NCBI RefSeq assembly: GCF_900489465.1
Contig: NZ_UEFQ01000020.1
Location: 1 to 64,000, forward strand
Direction of reading: 5' to 3'
Source of the DNA: Aequorivita sp. CIP111184
Lineage (GTDB): Bacteria; Bacteroidota; Bacteroidia; Flavobacteriales; Flavobacteriaceae
Length of the DNA stretch: 64,000 nt
Both the position numbers and the translations under genes were made by a program. Below the pieces are notes generated by a model, which was given only the letters and a program-made list of their open reading frames with translations, did no database searches and was not told the origin of the DNA. This document shows positions 23,344-31,207 of this stretch, piece by piece (the stretch's first letter is position 1; each line of letters opens with the position of its first letter).

Positions 23344-24219
23344 TTACTCTGTGGACAAATATAATTGAAATAGCTGTAACTTTCTTTCCGTGATTCCTTC
23401 AATTTTGTTCAGCTCTTGAATGCTGGTAATTTTTTCACGAAGTCTGCGGTATTCCCAAATTTTCTTTGCCATTTCAAATGAGATGCCAGGAATGGTTGAA
23501 ATATCGGAAGCGGAGGCCATATTTATATTTAATTTTGAAATTTTCTTTGGGGTTTTTACTGTGAAAATATTCAGTGTTCGCTGCACTACTGTAGGATCTA
23601 ATCCATAAACACTATACAATTGAATATCATCTGAAAACCCACCCAACTTGTCTCGATATGAAATGATTCGTTTGCTCAACGCCTCCCCTATTCCACTTAT
23701 TTGTTGTAATTGTTCTTCGCTTGCTTTGTTGAGATCAATTTTTTGGGTGAAAGATTTTTCCGAAAAACCTTTTTCACTTTTATAATCTTTCTTTGGTTTT
23801 GGATTTGTCACCCAATCAGGAAATTTGAAATAAGGACTCAATTCTTTCAATAGAGAATCTGAAACGCCCGTTACTTTTTTAAAGTCGGCTGCAGAATTAA
23901 TCCATTTATCTTTCTTTCTGTATTGAAACAAACGGTCAATTTCTTTGTTTGACATTCCAAGGGTATACCCTTTATAATCTGTAATAAAATTGGGGTTAAA
24001 AGGATATTTTTTAGGCTTCCTATTTTCCATTTCAACAAGGCGAAGCGAATCCAACTCTTTCTGCATTGCAACAATTTCTGCTGAAGAGGTATCAAAGGTG
24101 TCTTCTTCGGAAAAATCCACAAACCAATAAACACACAGCAACAAAACGATGAGTAGCAACAAAAGCAAAACCCCACTCCGTTGTTGCTTATTGAACGTGA
24201 AGTGGGATTTTATATTCAT
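23344..24219 (-). CDS. Membrane-anchored helix-hairpin-helix (ComEA-like) protein
   Basis: A 291-residue protein beginning at ATG 24219 (MNIKSHFTF); a longer frame upstream overlaps the symporter gene and is not supported. One membrane helix covers about residues 17-34. Two helix-hairpin-helix modules lie near 160-225 (LNKASEEQLQQISGIGEALSKRI) and 230-291 (NMASASDISTIPGISFEMAKKI). HHH modules bind DNA backbones; ComEA relatives bind DNA during uptake. It starts 11 bases after the symporter stop. Codons 3-17 overlap an RNA hairpin that is also preserved in a pseudogene copy at 26081-26339. Confidence 0.85.
   Translation of the reverse strand: MNIKSHFTFNKQQRSGVLLLLLLIVLLLCVYWFVDFSEEDTFDTSSAEIVAMQKELDSLRLVEMENRKPKKYPFNPNFITDYKGYTLGMSNKEIDRLFQYRKKDKWINSAADFKKVTGVSDSLLKELSPYFKFPDWVTNPKPKKDYKSEKGFSEKSFTQKIDLNKASEEQLQQISGIGEALSKRIISYRDKLGGFSDDIQLYSVYGLDPTVVQRTLNIFTVKTPKKISKLNINMASASDISTIPGISFEMAKKIWEYRRLREKITSIQELNKIEGITERKLQLFQLYLSTE
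23356..23363 (-). promoter_or_regulatory. Candidate -7 promoter element for the acyl-CoA dehydrogenase
   Basis: The minus strand reads TATATTTG, matching TAnnTTTG, within the last codons of the upstream HHH gene and 60 bases before the dehydrogenase ATG. Confidence 0.35.
24167..24211 (-). promoter_or_regulatory. Conserved RNA hairpin after symporter A, overlapping the start of the HHH gene
   Basis: On the minus strand AAAATCCCACTTC (24211-24199) pairs with GGAGTGGGGTTTT (24179-24167), 13 bp with two G-U pairs and a 19-base loop. The 3' arm ends in TTTT and is followed by GCTTTTGTTG. A homologous hairpin of identical stem and loop length follows symporter B, although the coding frame there has decayed. 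It may terminate the symporter mRNA or attenuate HHH translation. Confidence 0.6.
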
Positions 24220-24230
24220 TTTAAAAAAAT

Positions 24231-25928
24231 TTAATCCGATATGGCTTCTCTTTTCATTTTTATTGCATCCAAATAGCGGCGCAATTGCTTTTTTACTACG
24301 GGGAAGAGGAAGAACAATCCTATCATATTTGGAAAAATCATTGCAAATATCATCGCGTCGGAAAAGTCCCAAATAGATTTCATATTTGCAGCGGCACCAA
24401 TGATAATAAAGATACAAAAAAGAACTTTATAAACTAAATCCATTGTTTTACCTCTTCCAAATAGATATTTCCAGGATTGTAGTCCATAATATGACCAAGA
24501 TATCATTGTTGATACAGCAAAAAGGAATACAGCAATAGTCAAGAAAATATTGGAATACGGGATAAATGCGTGAAATGCTTGAGCGGTTATTCCGGAGCCT
24601 TCATAAGATACACCGTCAATAATAGCAACACCGTGACCAGTTACGTCACCATATTCAAAATAACCTCCCATATTAAAAATTATAATTACCAGAGCCGTCA
24701 TAGTACATATAACTACTGTATCTATAAAAGGCTCTAATAGTGCGACCAAACCTTCACTTGCAGAATATTTTGTACGAACGGCAGAGTGTGCAATGGATGC
24801 AGAACCTGCACCAGCTTCATTGGAAAAGGCCGCCCTTTTAAAACCAACCAATAATACTCCTATTAAAGAACCAACACCGATTGCAGTTGGTTTAAATGCT
24901 TCTGTGATAATTAGATTTATAGCATCGTCAATTAATGTATAGTTGCTTAAAATTATATATAAACAAGCAATTATATAAAAAATCGCCATAAAGGGAACCA
25001 CCCTTTCGGTTACTTGAGCAATTCTTTTTATACCTCCAATAATAATGATACCTACCAAAATAGCAAGCAAAACACCAATCCAAAAACCAGCAGCTGTACT
25101 TTGAAGGTTGAACAAATCTTTCAATACAATAGTTGCTTGATTGGATTGTGCGGCATTACCCCCACCAAAAGAACCCCCAATACAAAAAATAGCAAATAGC
25201 ACAGCTGCTATTTTGCCTAATGTTGCAAAGCCTTTTTCCTTGAGTCCTTTGCTTAAATAATACATTGGACCTCCGTACACAGTACCGTCTGGACCCACAT
25301 CTCGATATTGAACACCCAGAGTACATTCCACAAATTTTGTAGACATTCCCAAGAGCCCGCAGACTACCATCCAAAAAGTAGCTCCTGGTCCACCAAGTGC
25401 AATAGCCAAGGCAACCCCGGCTATATTTCCATTACCTACAGTGCCCGAAACTGCTGTTGCTAAAGCTTGAAAATGGCTTACTTCTCCTGCCGAGCTTTCA
25501 TCACGTATTGTATCTACAATATTACCATCTATGGCTAAATCATCGTCAAGGGTTTCGATGTGTGCTTTAAAGTCATCAACTTTATTCATGTCAACTCCTT
25601 GGGCAATTCCGCCTTCTCCATATAAAATTTTAGCTCCATGGTTTTCGATATCCTCATATTTGCCTCGCACAGTTTGTATTGCCCGCCAAAAGTATCTGAA
25701 GTTAGGAAACCCAAAATATAATGTGAAAAAAGTAGCACTAAAAACTAGTAGTATAAGAACAAACGGAATTCCAGCTATTTGAAAGAATATCACATTCGAG
25801 AAAAAATTAGATACAGGCAGAAAAGCCTGATTAATTTTTTCATCAATACCTATTTCTGGAGGCGTTTCTTGCGCAAAATTTAGTATTGGAATTAAAAATG
25901 CGATTAGCGAAAGCAAATGTTTCTTCAT
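24231..25928 (-). CDS. Sodium:alanine/glycine symporter family (AGCS), copy A
   Basis: A 565-residue inner-membrane amino-acid carrier using a sodium gradient. Family signatures are GNGNIAGVALAIALGGPGATFWM and SNEAGAGSASIAHSA. About ten or more membrane spans are visible. The N-terminus looks like a cleavable signal (ends LNFAQ), as in copy B. Compared with copy B there is an insert around residues 105-145. It arose by tandem duplication together with copy B. Confidence 0.93.
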   Translation of the reverse strand: MKKHLLSLIAFLIPILNFAQETPPEIGIDEKINQAFLPVSNFFSNVIFFQIAGIPFVLILLVFSATFFTLYFGFPNFRYFWRAIQTVRGKYEDIENHGAKILYGEGGIAQGVDMNKVDDFKAHIETLDDDLAIDGNIVDTIRDESSAGEVSHFQALATAVSGTVGNGNIAGVALAIALGGPGATFWMVVCGLLGMSTKFVECTLGVQYRDVGPDGTVYGGPMYYLSKGLKEKGFATLGKIAAVLFAIFCIGGSFGGGNAAQSNQATIVLKDLFNLQSTAAGFWIGVLLAILVGIIIIGGIKRIAQVTERVVPFMAIFYIIACLYIILSNYTLIDDAINLIITEAFKPTAIGVGSLIGVLLVGFKRAAFSNEAGAGSASIAHSAVRTKYSASEGLVALLEPFIDTVVICTMTALVIIIFNMGGYFEYGDVTGHGVAIIDGVSYEGSGITAQAFHAFIPYSNIFLTIAVFLFAVSTMISWSYYGLQSWKYLFGRGKTMDLVYKVLFCIFIIIGAAANMKSIWDFSDAMIFAMIFPNMIGLFFLFPVVKKQLRRYLDAIKMKREAISD

Positions 25929-26033
25929 AGTAGTTTTTTAAGATGAATCGCTTTTCTTAAATAAAGCGAAGCAAGATGCTTAAAAAAAACTATATTTTTA
26001 AAAAATTGTGAAGTTATTTGTTAACACTTTCGT

Positions 26034-26069
26034 AAACCCAAATTTCTTTTTAAGAATTTCAATTTTTCT
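26034..26069 (-). pseudogene. Remnant of the 3' end of the K+ channel gene
   Basis: The minus strand encodes RKIEILKKKFGF, matching the C-terminal NQIEKLKKEYGV of the K+ channel at 28108. Non-coding similarity continues to about 25969, where GCAAGATGCTTAAAAAA is shared with 28047-28063. The old stop codon has become TAC through a one-base deletion and a substitution. This marks one end of the duplicated segment. Confidence 0.8.
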
Positions 26070-26080
26070 TTAAGAGGTTG

Positions 26081-26339
26081 CCATTGGGAGAATTTAAAAT
26101 AGAGCCTCAATTCCACATAAAAAAACCGTAAATACTTATAGAACCAAACCCTATACTTAATGTTTAAGTAATAAAGTGAAGCGAACAATTTCTTTATTGG
26201 AAATTTTTAGAATATGGTTTTTAAATTCTTTGATTGAATTTGGATTGAATCATTCTGCGGAAGGAGTCTCAAAGTATTCTAAATTGAAAATCCCACTTCA
26301 CCTTCAATTAATAACGACGAAGTGAGATTTTAAATTGAA
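26081..26339 (-). pseudogene. Decayed copy of the 5' half of the HHH (ComEA-like) gene
   Basis: From 26339 the minus strand reads NLKSHF, then three in-frame stops, with SG, TPSAE, FNPNSIKEFK and ISNKEIVRF in the same frame. After a frameshift, KYR and VELRLYFKFSQW follow. These match MNIKSHF, DTSSAE, FNPNFITDYK, MSNKEIDRL, QYR and KELSPYFKFPDW of the intact HHH protein in the same order. The membrane-helix codons are deleted. The fragment ends where the K+ channel remnant begins, so the whole 418-bp intergenic region is a duplication scar. Confidence 0.88.
26287..26331 (-). promoter_or_regulatory. Conserved RNA hairpin after symporter B
   Basis: On the minus strand AAAATCTCACTTC (26331-26319) pairs with GAAGTGGGATTTT (26299-26287), 13 bp with one G-U pair and a 19-base loop. 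It is the counterpart of the hairpin at 24167-24211. All three stem differences between the copies keep pairing, while the loop matches at only about 6 of 19 positions. Confidence 0.6.
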
Positions 26340-26346
26340 GGCTATT

Positions 26347-28008
26347 TTAAATTTCTTTAACTTCCTTACTTTCTTTATGAATGGTAGCATCCATTTTATC
26401 TATTTTAATTGCATTTAGGTATTTTCTCAGTTCTTTTTTCACTTTAGGTGAAAGCAAGACCAAACCTATTATATTGGGGAACACCATAGCAAATATCATA
26501 GCATCGGAAAAACCAATTACAGCACCCAAACTTGAGGAGGCACCTACAATTAAAAATATTAAAAATAACACCTTATAAGTTATATCAGAAACTTTTCCTT
26601 TTCCGAAAAGAAATTTCCAAGATTGAAGCCCGTAATAGGACCATGAAATCATGGTGGAGATAGCAAACAAAATTACGGCTATGGTAAGTACTATAGAAAA
26701 GTTTGGAATAGCAGAGTCAAAAGCCACTGAAGTTAAATCAACCCCATTAATTGGTTGGTTTGTAGCATTGAGCATAACGTTACTTGCCGCATCAAGGTTT
26801 CCGTAAGTAAACAGGTTGTGTTTTGCATTGGTGATAATAATCACAATAGCGGTCATTGTACATATAATAACGGTATCCACAAAAGGCCCCAATAAAGCAG
26901 TTAGACCTTCGCTGGCAGGATATCGGGTTTTTACAGCGGAGTGCGCAATGGCAGCAGACCCCACACCAGCTTCGTTAGAGAATGCTGCGCGCTGAAATCC
27001 AACTATCAACACTCCAACCACACCACCAAACGCGGCATTCGGATTTGTAGCTCCTTCCCAGATTTGATTAGCAGCATAAGGAATCATATCATAATTAATC
27101 CCTAAAATTATTAGACCTGCCCCAACATAAATAATTGCCATAAATGGAACAACTTTTTCCGTAACAGAACCAATTCTTTTAATTCCACCAATAATCACAA
27201 GACCTACAATAACAGCCATTACTAGCCCCACATAGAGCCCAGCATTAGGACCGTCCCAACCCATTAGTTGCGTTAACTGTGCTGCGGCTTGATTGGATTG
27301 AAACATGTTTCCACCACCAAAAGATCCTCCAATACACATAATTGCAAAAAAGACAGCCAAAATTTTACCGAAACCAGCCATTCCCATTTCTTTGAGACCA
27401 CTGGCAAGATAATACATTGGCCCCCCATATGTTTTCCCGTCGGCGTCTACTTCTCTATATTTTACACCCAAAGTACATTCCACAAACTTTGAAGCCATTC
27501 CTAATAGTCCAGCTACAATCATCCATATTGTTGCTCCTGGACCACCAATGGCGATGGCAACCGCAACACCTGCAATGTTTCCTAATCCTACTGTTGCCGA
27601 CAAGGAAGCCGTTAGTGCCTGAAAGTGTGTAACCTCGCCCGGAACTTCTCCTGTTAACTGAACAGTATCAATAATTTTACCATCCTTTACCTCAATCTCT
27701 TGATCAGCAGGAACATGATGATCTAGTTTATCATATTTTCCAGATGCTGTTTTAATAGAGATTTTTAAATATCTAAAATTAACCCCATTAAAATAAAGCG
27801 TGAAAAAGAGTGCTCCCGCCAGCAAAAGAATAATTACTATTGGCATATCTTTTCCCGCTATTGTTACAGGATAAAAAATTAAATCTACAAGTGGTGTAGT
27901 GTATTCAGCAAACGCATCATCGATTTTATCTCCGAAACTTTTTTGTTCTTGTGCGAAAGTGAAGATTGGAATAAGAAATGTAATTAGCGAAAGAAGATAT
28001 TTCTTCAT
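26347..28008 (-). CDS. Sodium:alanine/glycine symporter family (AGCS), copy B
   Basis: A 553-residue sodium-coupled amino-acid carrier, paralogous to copy A. GNIAGVAVAIAIGGPGATIWM and SNEAGVGSAAIAHSA are the family signatures. Both copies begin with an MKKxLLSLI signal-like segment ending FAQ, unusual for an inner-membrane carrier. Copy B has a longer loop between about residues 405 and 445. It lies directly downstream of the K+ channel, the presumed ancestral position. Confidence 0.93.
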   Translation of the reverse strand: MKKYLLSLITFLIPIFTFAQEQKSFGDKIDDAFAEYTTPLVDLIFYPVTIAGKDMPIVIILLLAGALFFTLYFNGVNFRYLKISIKTASGKYDKLDHHVPADQEIEVKDGKIIDTVQLTGEVPGEVTHFQALTASLSATVGLGNIAGVAVAIAIGGPGATIWMIVAGLLGMASKFVECTLGVKYREVDADGKTYGGPMYYLASGLKEMGMAGFGKILAVFFAIMCIGGSFGGGNMFQSNQAAAQLTQLMGWDGPNAGLYVGLVMAVIVGLVIIGGIKRIGSVTEKVVPFMAIIYVGAGLIILGINYDMIPYAANQIWEGATNPNAAFGGVVGVLIVGFQRAAFSNEAGVGSAAIAHSAVKTRYPASEGLTALLGPFVDTVIICTMTAIVIIITNAKHNLFTYGNLDAASNVMLNATNQPINGVDLTSVAFDSAIPNFSIVLTIAVILFAISTMISWSYYGLQSWKFLFGKGKVSDITYKVLFLIFLIVGASSSLGAVIGFSDAMIFAMVFPNIIGLVLLSPKVKKELRKYLNAIKIDKMDATIHKESKEVKEI

Positions 28009-28107: not shown

Positions 28108-29115
28108 TTAAACCCCGTATTCCTTTTTAAGTTTCTCAATTTGGTTGGGACGTCCTATCAATATTAATTTAGAATTTTTTTGAAGAATAAGTGAAGGTTC
28201 TGGGTTAACAATATATTCTCCTGTTGGAGAACGATAACCTATTATAGAACAGCCTGTTTTTTTGCGAACATCCAAATCTTGGATTGCCTGTTCATTTCCG
28301 TTTGGACACATTTTTTCAAAGGAAATTTGCTCAACGTTAATACTGTCTTCCATTCCAGAAACAGTTAGATTATCCAAAAATTCCACAAGATCAGGCACTA
28401 CTACCAAAGAAGCCATATGGTCGCCACCTATTTTATCTGGCATAATAACATTATCTGCTCCTGCAAGTTTCATTTTTTTATAACTGGTCTCTTCACTTGC
28501 GCGACTAATAATTTTAAGGTTCTTATTCATCTGTCTGGCAGAAAGCACCACAAAAAGATTATCGGCATCACTTGGCGTGGCACAGATTAATGTGGAAGCT
28601 TTTTCTACACCTGCTTTTAGAAGAATCTCATCTTCAATGGCATTTCCTAAAATGAACAACGTATTATCGTCCGAAAATCGATCGATTACCTCCTCATCTT
28701 TTTCAATAATTACAAAGGGACGGTTGTAGGCCAATAATTTCTGGGCGGCTTGTTTTCCGTTTCTTCCAAAGCCACATACAATAATGTGGTCATGCATAGA
28801 TTCCAATTTTTTTTGCACTTTTTTCTGTCTTAAAATACCTATGTTTTTACTTAAAATATATTCAGTAGTTACCGAAATGGAATAACCAACTATAAAGATA
28901 CTTGAAATGATGAGAAGCGAAACAAAAACTTTTTCCGAAGGGCTCAAAGGCATTACTTCACCGTATCCCACGGTTGTAATGGTAATGACGGTCATGTAAA
29001 AAGAATCAATCCAACTGTACTCCGAAAACAAACGAAAACCCAATACGCCTGACAGGAATACCAAGAGCAATAAGAGAAGTGCGACCGTTATTTTAGAGTT
29101 GAAGATATTCTTCAT
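28108..29115 (-). CDS. Potassium channel with TrkA-type RCK domain
   Basis: A 335-residue two-span K+ channel. Membrane helices lie at about 9-28 and 63-85, and the selectivity filter TTVGYG is at 47-52. A Rossmann RCK/TrkA-N domain begins with IIVCGFGRNG at 111-120, and a TrkA-C-type domain follows to the C-terminus. The ATG overlaps the end of the PspC gene by 4 bases, so the two are translationally coupled. The last codons were copied into the scar at 26034-26069. Confidence 0.93.
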   Translation of the reverse strand: MKNIFNSKITVALLLLLLVFLSGVLGFRLFSEYSWIDSFYMTVITITTVGYGEVMPLSPSEKVFVSLLIISSIFIVGYSISVTTEYILSKNIGILRQKKVQKKLESMHDHIIVCGFGRNGKQAAQKLLAYNRPFVIIEKDEEVIDRFSDDNTLFILGNAIEDEILLKAGVEKASTLICATPSDADNLFVVLSARQMNKNLKIISRASEETSYKKMKLAGADNVIMPDKIGGDHMASLVVVPDLVEFLDNLTVSGMEDSINVEQISFEKMCPNGNEQAIQDLDVRKKTGCSIIGYRSPTGEYIVNPEPSLILQKNSKLILIGRPNQIEKLKKEYGV

Positions 29116-31135: not shown

Positions 31136-31156
31136 AACAGCCTAAAAATAACAAAA

Positions 31157-31185
31157 ATCCCGCTCCATTTAGAATGAAGCGGGAT
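31157..31185 (-). terminator. Terminator after the CBS-type PLP enzyme
   Basis: ATCCCGCTCCATT at 31157-31169 pairs with AATGAAGCGGGAT at 31173-31185 (one non-Watson-Crick pair) around a 3-base loop. On the minus strand TTTTTGTTATTTTT follows. Confidence 0.85.
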
Positions 31186-31207
31186 ATTATTTTAAATACT
31201 CAATAAA

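Follow-up and report, generated by a model that had tools for sequence, protein, structure and literature searches.

A hairpin with a T-rich tail inside the coding start of the helix-hairpin-helix (HHH) gene of Flavobacteriaceae is, judging from sequence, very probably the intrinsic (Rho-independent) terminator of the symporter gene upstream. The hairpin is conserved, its paired positions covary, it survives where HHH does not, and its loss or replacement is linked to the upstream gene. We infer termination of the symporter transcript because the stem lies about 23 nt past the symporter stop codon, is followed by more T than recoded sequences would carry, and has the form of hairpins found in gaps at gene ends. 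Among the functions that a first-pass annotation had offered (symporter terminator, 3' stability element, sensor), the first fits best, because the hairpin tracks a co-directional symporter gene, is mostly replaced by substitute hairpins where it is broken, and resembles the gap hairpins. This intact, family-wide dual-coding element is a larger finding than the decayed copy, hairpin B, that accompanies it in the sequence analysed.

Two homologous hairpins follow tandem symporter genes

The window, i.e. the whole 64,000-nt stretch of Aequorivita sp. CIP111184 DNA that was analysed, carries on its minus strand, in this order, a potassium-channel-like gene, AGCS-B, AGCS-A, the HHH gene and a gene that is probably, by its sequence, acyl-CoA-dehydrogenase-like; the families of the first four were assigned by Pfam (Table 1). 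The common gene order is channel, AGCS, HHH and acyl-CoA-dehydrogenase-like gene, and the channel gene of the window fits it.

Table 1. Features of the window discussed in the text.
Feature	Positions	Strand	Details
Hairpin B	26287..26331	-	13-pair stem, arms 26331-26319 and 26299-26287; 19-nt loop 26318-26300
Hairpin A	24167..24211	-	arms 24211-24199 and 24179-24167; 19-nt loop 24198-24180
AGCS-B, sodium:alanine symporter	26347..28008	-	Pfam PF01235
AGCS-A, sodium:alanine symporter	24231..25928	-	Pfam PF01235
HHH gene, intact	23344..24219	-	from ATG at 24219; Pfam HHH_3, two stretches
Potassium-channel-like gene upstream of AGCS-B	28108..29115	-	TrkA_N, Ion_trans_2
Remnant of decayed HHH copy	26281..26334	-	recognisable in the window around the hairpin only
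Intergenic hairpin of similar stem	31147..31190	-	ATCCCGCTTC/GGAGCGGGAT; between two tandem reading frames; comparison

Hairpin B starts 15 nt past the AGCS-B stop codon and hairpin A 19 nt past that of AGCS-A, and the two symporter transcripts would stop at hairpins B and A, respectively. On the minus strand, B folds with -19.3 kcal/mol (z -4.76) and A with -20.3 kcal/mol (z -3.99), and none of 200 shuffles was as good in either case; the plus-strand folds are weaker (-11.9, z -2.45, and -13.3, z -1.74). The coordinates confirm that A and B have equal stems (13 bp) and equal loops (19 nt), as the first-pass annotation had described, and that hairpin A overlaps codons 3-17 of the intact HHH gene, in which a leucine-rich segment follows codon 16. 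The annotation was also right that the two copies are separated by three pairing-neutral stem differences, one C-G to U-G and two G-U versus A-U, and that the loop keeps about 6 of 19 bases: 3 of 25 counted stem columns differ, as against 13 of 19 loop columns. With the usual Aequorivita stem as reference, B departs from it once (C to U, pairing retained), and the remaining two differences are G-U wobbles located in A. The T-tract of hairpin B overlaps the stem end and is followed by CAATTT, while hairpin A is followed by GCTTTTGTTG, which supplies leucine codons in HHH. The T-tracts in the window are interrupted, that of B is poor, and the loop is long (19 nt). A search of the own genome with the hairpin model returned hairpin B with E 4.7e-7, B itself being among the model's 43 rows.

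The stem outlives the reading frame in Aequorivita

Translated in the frame that is homologous to HHH, hairpin B gives K S H F V V I N stop R stop S G I F, in agreement with the earlier observation that this frame has gained stops; both stops lie in the loop region, and the remnant has no start codon. A tblastn search of HHH against the window stretch after AGCS-B gave no match. At the same place in A. antarctica (L031), HHH residues 1-31 and 29-152 are matched, the longer piece containing six stops; in the genome G016 (also L034), the match covers residues 3-34 and has one stop. Because these relatives (L031, G016) retain HHH matches with stops, we regard the hairpin B stretch as a decayed HHH copy. 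A shared terminator motif as the sole source of the likeness between A and B is made less likely by the A. antarctica remnant and by the conserved gene slot, both of which speak for descent from HHH, yet gap hairpins of similar stem do exist in the own genome.

AGCS-B followed by AGCS-A was examined in six Aequorivita loci (the window, L031, L032, L034, L044 and L050). The hairpin between the two genes is kept in all six, with all 12 counted pairs in five and 10 in L032. Compared with the intact HHH copy of the same genome, the six together show changes at 7 of 150 stem positions and at 52 of 114 loop positions; for L050 alone the difference between stem and loop is not significant (p 0.07). 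The six loci probably share one duplication and therefore do not count as six independent origins. In L053, where AGCS-B precedes another AGCS type, neither an HHH remnant nor the hairpin was found.

The stem is conserved across Flavobacteriaceae

HHH is present in 272 of 299 sampled genomes of the family. We examined 154 loci, made up of the best-scoring family loci (27, one duplicate having been dropped, plus 100 fetched) and those of the genus, a choice that biases the set toward relatives resembling the window; five loci that were impossible to anchor lie outside it. In this set, 95.7% of the cells of the 12-pair stem are standard pairs, the top value of 1081 registers. All 12 pairs are formed in 114 loci, 11 in 26, 10 in 6 and fewer in 8. 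An AGCS gene lies within 400 nt upstream of HHH in 151 of the 154 loci, for which the median distance from symporter stop to stem is 23 nt, and AGCS is also adjacent in L181. In L153 and L177 an SNF-type symporter, an identity confirmed by Pfam in three other loci, replaces AGCS upstream. The AGCS-linked loci carry 117 genus labels, in which codes and names are mixed.

Synonymous recoding with each locus's own codon usage yielded 8.2 pairs and -6.4 kcal/mol, compared with 11.5 pairs and -17.6 kcal/mol observed, and the stem exceeded recoding in 136 of 154 loci at p<0.05. We give practically no credence to the explanation that the stem is a by-product of conserved N-terminal residues of HHH (K-S-H-F ... 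R-S-G-I). The peptide is indeed conserved in symporter-linked loci, but the recoding null and the decayed copies contradict this explanation, and loci without the symporter largely retain F-x-F ... Q-R-x-G but lose the stem.

Paired positions change together

In a 43-sequence alignment picked from paired loci, 96.2% of cells are paired, double changes occur in 7 of 13 pairs, and slid registers pair at 37-62%. The alignment holds 38 double-change cells as against 4.9 in shuffles, and none of 500 shuffles reached 38. A phylogeny-aware test on 179 tips, in which both members of a pair are modelled along a FastTree tree built from the remaining protein, gave p 8e-13 for pair 11-37, 6e-5 for 14-34 and 2e-4 for 12-36; stem pair 13-35 is invariant on one side, and the test covers the three other pairs. 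Covariation, which had been named beforehand as the check, thereby supports three stem pairs; in the same test the p values of nine control column pairs ranged from 0.08 to 0.81.

The commonest coupled change joins a silent third base in a His/Tyr codon to a Ser/Asn replacement nine codons downstream, with counts of C-G 63, T-A 92, T-G 15 and C-A 2. The choice of amino acid, here between Ser and Asn at a single site, can follow RNA pairing. In rarer couplings the residues encoded by one arm, or by both, are replaced (CAC CTT with GGT, CAT ATC with TAT, CAT GTC with CGT, CGT with AAC, CTT with AAA), and unrepaired combinations exist as well (CAT GTC with AAT, CAT TTC with TAT). The first-pass annotation had proposed selection on the RNA structure and not on the protein; this is supported because the stem is kept in six of six decayed copies, because compensations that change amino acids keep the pairing family-wide, and because the stem exceeds synonymous recoding.

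An intact stem goes with an upstream symporter gene

We classified 269 loci by their upstream gene. Of the 180 loci preceded by a co-directional symporter gene, 161 form 11 or 12 pairs of the 12-pair stem (AGCS 149/167, SNF symporter 12/13), versus 4 of the 87 without one (PspC-adjacent 4/36, divergent amino-acid permease 0/51); both unclassified loci form fewer than 11. The Fisher p for this link is 7e-45, a value that ignores ancestry. All 87 non-symporter loci belong to the single genus code g127, so the stem losses represent few independent events; the upstream class changes six times on the tree, with one independent pair on well-supported branches. Within g127, all ten SNF-linked loci have at least 11 pairs. 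Exceptions occur on both sides: fewer than 11 pairs are formed in 19 of the 180 symporter-linked loci, and four PspC-adjacent loci without a symporter (L262, L279, L286, L290) have at least 11. Pair counts can differ from energies, as in L212, L213, L215 and L216 from other families, which have 11 pairs but a weak fold in the family register (-7.6 to -8.5).

T after the stem amounts to 8.40 of 12 positions in symporter-linked loci, versus 7.47 in recoded sequences and 7.25 in non-symporter loci. What marks an intrinsic terminator was found here as follows: the stem-loop is stable beyond chance against shuffles, recoding and resampled controls; a U-rich tract directly 3' of the stem is present over the symporter-linked loci and weak in window copy B; and the position is just past the upstream stop codon.

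Of the 161 symporter-linked loci that form 11 or more pairs, 140 have the stem starting 3-12 nt past an in-frame ATG, so ribosomes initiating at HHH must interfere with the hairpin. In E. coli, translating ribosomes have been described as weakening, or repressing, a terminator that lies very close to a stop codon (PMC4824070). The hairpin could accordingly be conceived mainly as an attenuator of HHH, in which ribosomes that translate the HHH start, or reinitiate there, compete with folding and set the HHH level. We consider this unlikely: the hairpin survives where HHH is dead, fewer than 11 pairs are formed in 83 of 87 loci that have HHH but no symporter directly upstream, and no alternative upstream helix is predicted in 28 loci. 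The position of the stem 3-12 nt past the ATG suggests that HHH would be made from read-through transcripts, with initiation competing with folding, and the putative attenuation of HHH is likely a side effect of where the symporter terminator sits. A more elaborate version, which we regard as doubtful but worth stating, is a family-wide dual-coded switch in which HHH would be made only when ribosomes hold the hairpin open, its synthesis would be coupled to ribosome traffic at the symporter stop, and pairing would have fixed the permitted HHH amino acids.

Substitute and shifted hairpins

Fewer than 10 pairs are formed in 8 of the 154 loci, and 7 of these 8 have a substitute hairpin nearby. In L072, L084, L102, L107 and L117, the spacer between symporter and HHH contains a separate hairpin that replaces the broken stem, and L094 and L109 have a re-registered hairpin inside the HHH gene; the substitute hairpins, too, carry T-tails. 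In L187, which has AGCS upstream, the folding and energy scans made revealed neither the stem nor a substitute. In loci of other families, the hairpin within HHH takes a further register; this is the case in L210, L211 and L214, with AGCS upstream, and in L218, with SNF upstream, and L212, for which 11 pairs were counted, likewise shows an other-register hairpin. By family code, L210, L211, L212 and L214 are f11 and L218 is f7, and their shifted hairpins lie at HHH codons after the usual site, which suggests that the terminator has shifted position within the HHH gene in the f11 and f7 loci.

An energy scan for terminator-like hairpins of -10 kcal/mol or better close to the HHH start gave one in 174 of the 180 symporter-linked loci, in 10 of the 87 others and in 1 of 60 Markov-resampled sequences. 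The scan misses L072 and L107, whose substitutes lie beyond the scanned stretch, L111 and L292 (-8.4), L187, and L176, the last probably through the scan's T rule.

Related hairpins elsewhere in the genome

The gap hairpin at 31147-31190 is probably an ordinary terminator. A covariance-model search of the own genome gave seven weaker matches that were inspected, all of them in gaps beside gene ends as set by mechanical reading-frame calls. The exact consensus pattern had no match in the own genome, and neither window copy fits that consensus exactly. Since similar stems recur in the genome, the hairpins might be thought to form a dispersed family of DNA palindromes or repeats unconnected with transcription ends. 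This is very improbable: in 28 Aequorivita genomes the listed matches with E <1e-5 sit at HHH starts or remnants, the model having been built from such sites, and the seven weaker matches inspected in the own genome lie at gene ends.

Protection of 3' ends is another role that a stem just past a stop codon can have. An element for the stability or processing of the symporter mRNA 3' end, in place of a terminator, would agree with the poor T-tract of window copy B, but we judge it quite unlikely, as the tract after the stem is richer in T than in recoding and non-symporter controls, the substitutes bear T-tails, and similar hairpins of the same genome occupy gaps at gene ends.

The third suggested function, a sensor, is unsupported. 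RNAalifold, applied to 70 nt upstream plus the hairpin in 28 chosen loci, predicted no helix besides the stem, which disfavours a riboswitch-like element, although a lineage-specific helix may be present; the conserved, mutually exclusive antiterminator helix that defines a regulated attenuator or riboswitch was not found in these 28 loci. Rfam at the gathering threshold gave no match at the hairpins and only tRNAs in the window, and at a loose threshold four matches, all far under their families' thresholds.

A putative terminator shared with the next gene's code

Our working model for Flavobacteriaceae places the terminator within the first ~17 HHH codons and not in the intergenic gap. The arms of the hairpin come from the K-S-H-F and R-S/N-G-I codons, and its U-tract from the I-F/L-L-L codons of the next hydrophobic segment. 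RNA polymerase that has passed the symporter gene would mostly stop at the hairpin, and read-through would supply HHH. At window copy B, HHH has decayed, presumably as a redundant duplicate, and selection would have maintained the AGCS-B terminator.

Intrinsic terminators are well known, and the hairpin shares with them a GC-containing stem, flanking A and T tracts, a position ~20 nt past the stop codon and a resemblance to intergenic hairpins of its own genome. It differs in lying within the coding start of the next gene, in sharing bases with codons, in its 19-nt loop and in its family-wide conservation with coupled amino-acid changes. In E. coli, 3' ends have been mapped inside coding sequences, one of them (aceK) predicted to be intrinsic (PMC7815308). 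The likeness consists in 3' ends within coding sequence; as described there, however, those ends are a gene's own premature ends or belong to internal small RNAs, whereas here the putative end is that of the upstream gene and the hairpin is conserved family-wide. For Flavobacterium psychrophilum, a member of the same bacterial family, partial-termination regions ('3' PT') transcribed downstream of predicted intrinsic terminators have been described (PMC9723704); these, too, are regions beyond predicted intrinsic terminators. The word 'symporter' is absent from the main text of that paper, and its supplementary tables may include an AGCS-HHH locus. A literature search at the level of listings and abstracts found no description of the AGCS-HHH hairpin, which does not prove absence.

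The unusual aspect is that a terminator and the code of the following gene occupy the same bases, with conservation in a family, coupled amino-acid changes and contrasts that separate both roles. The locus provides a clear natural case in which one DNA stretch is a gene's putative terminator and the next gene's protein code, and three evolutionary contrasts (a dead downstream gene, a missing upstream gene and a replacement terminator) separate the two. It also warns that a conserved protein N-terminus may reflect RNA, and it makes the expression of genes behind in-frame terminators a directly testable question.

Symporter slot and a conserved spacer word

The slot before HHH is filled by interchangeable sodium symporters, of three AGCS types or of SNF type accompanied by a small additional open frame. 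Such swapping is seen in the window (24231-28008), in L048, L049, L206 and L252, and in others, with mostly unchanged flanking genes. In L047 (6001-6883), an Aequorivita MAG, HHH was matched only as two pieces with a gap and may be broken or misassembled.

An ACTCCC-like word before HHH (GCTCCC in two) is conserved in 17 long-spacer loci (L048, L065, L066, L068, L070, L073-L076, L078, L079, L084, L096, L102, L113, L117 and L120). It is better conserved than its hairpin, and RNAalifold gives no consensus fold for the 17 loci. The word is often part of a hairpin, the 3' arm of which (GGAG or GGGGAG) extends into the HHH start.
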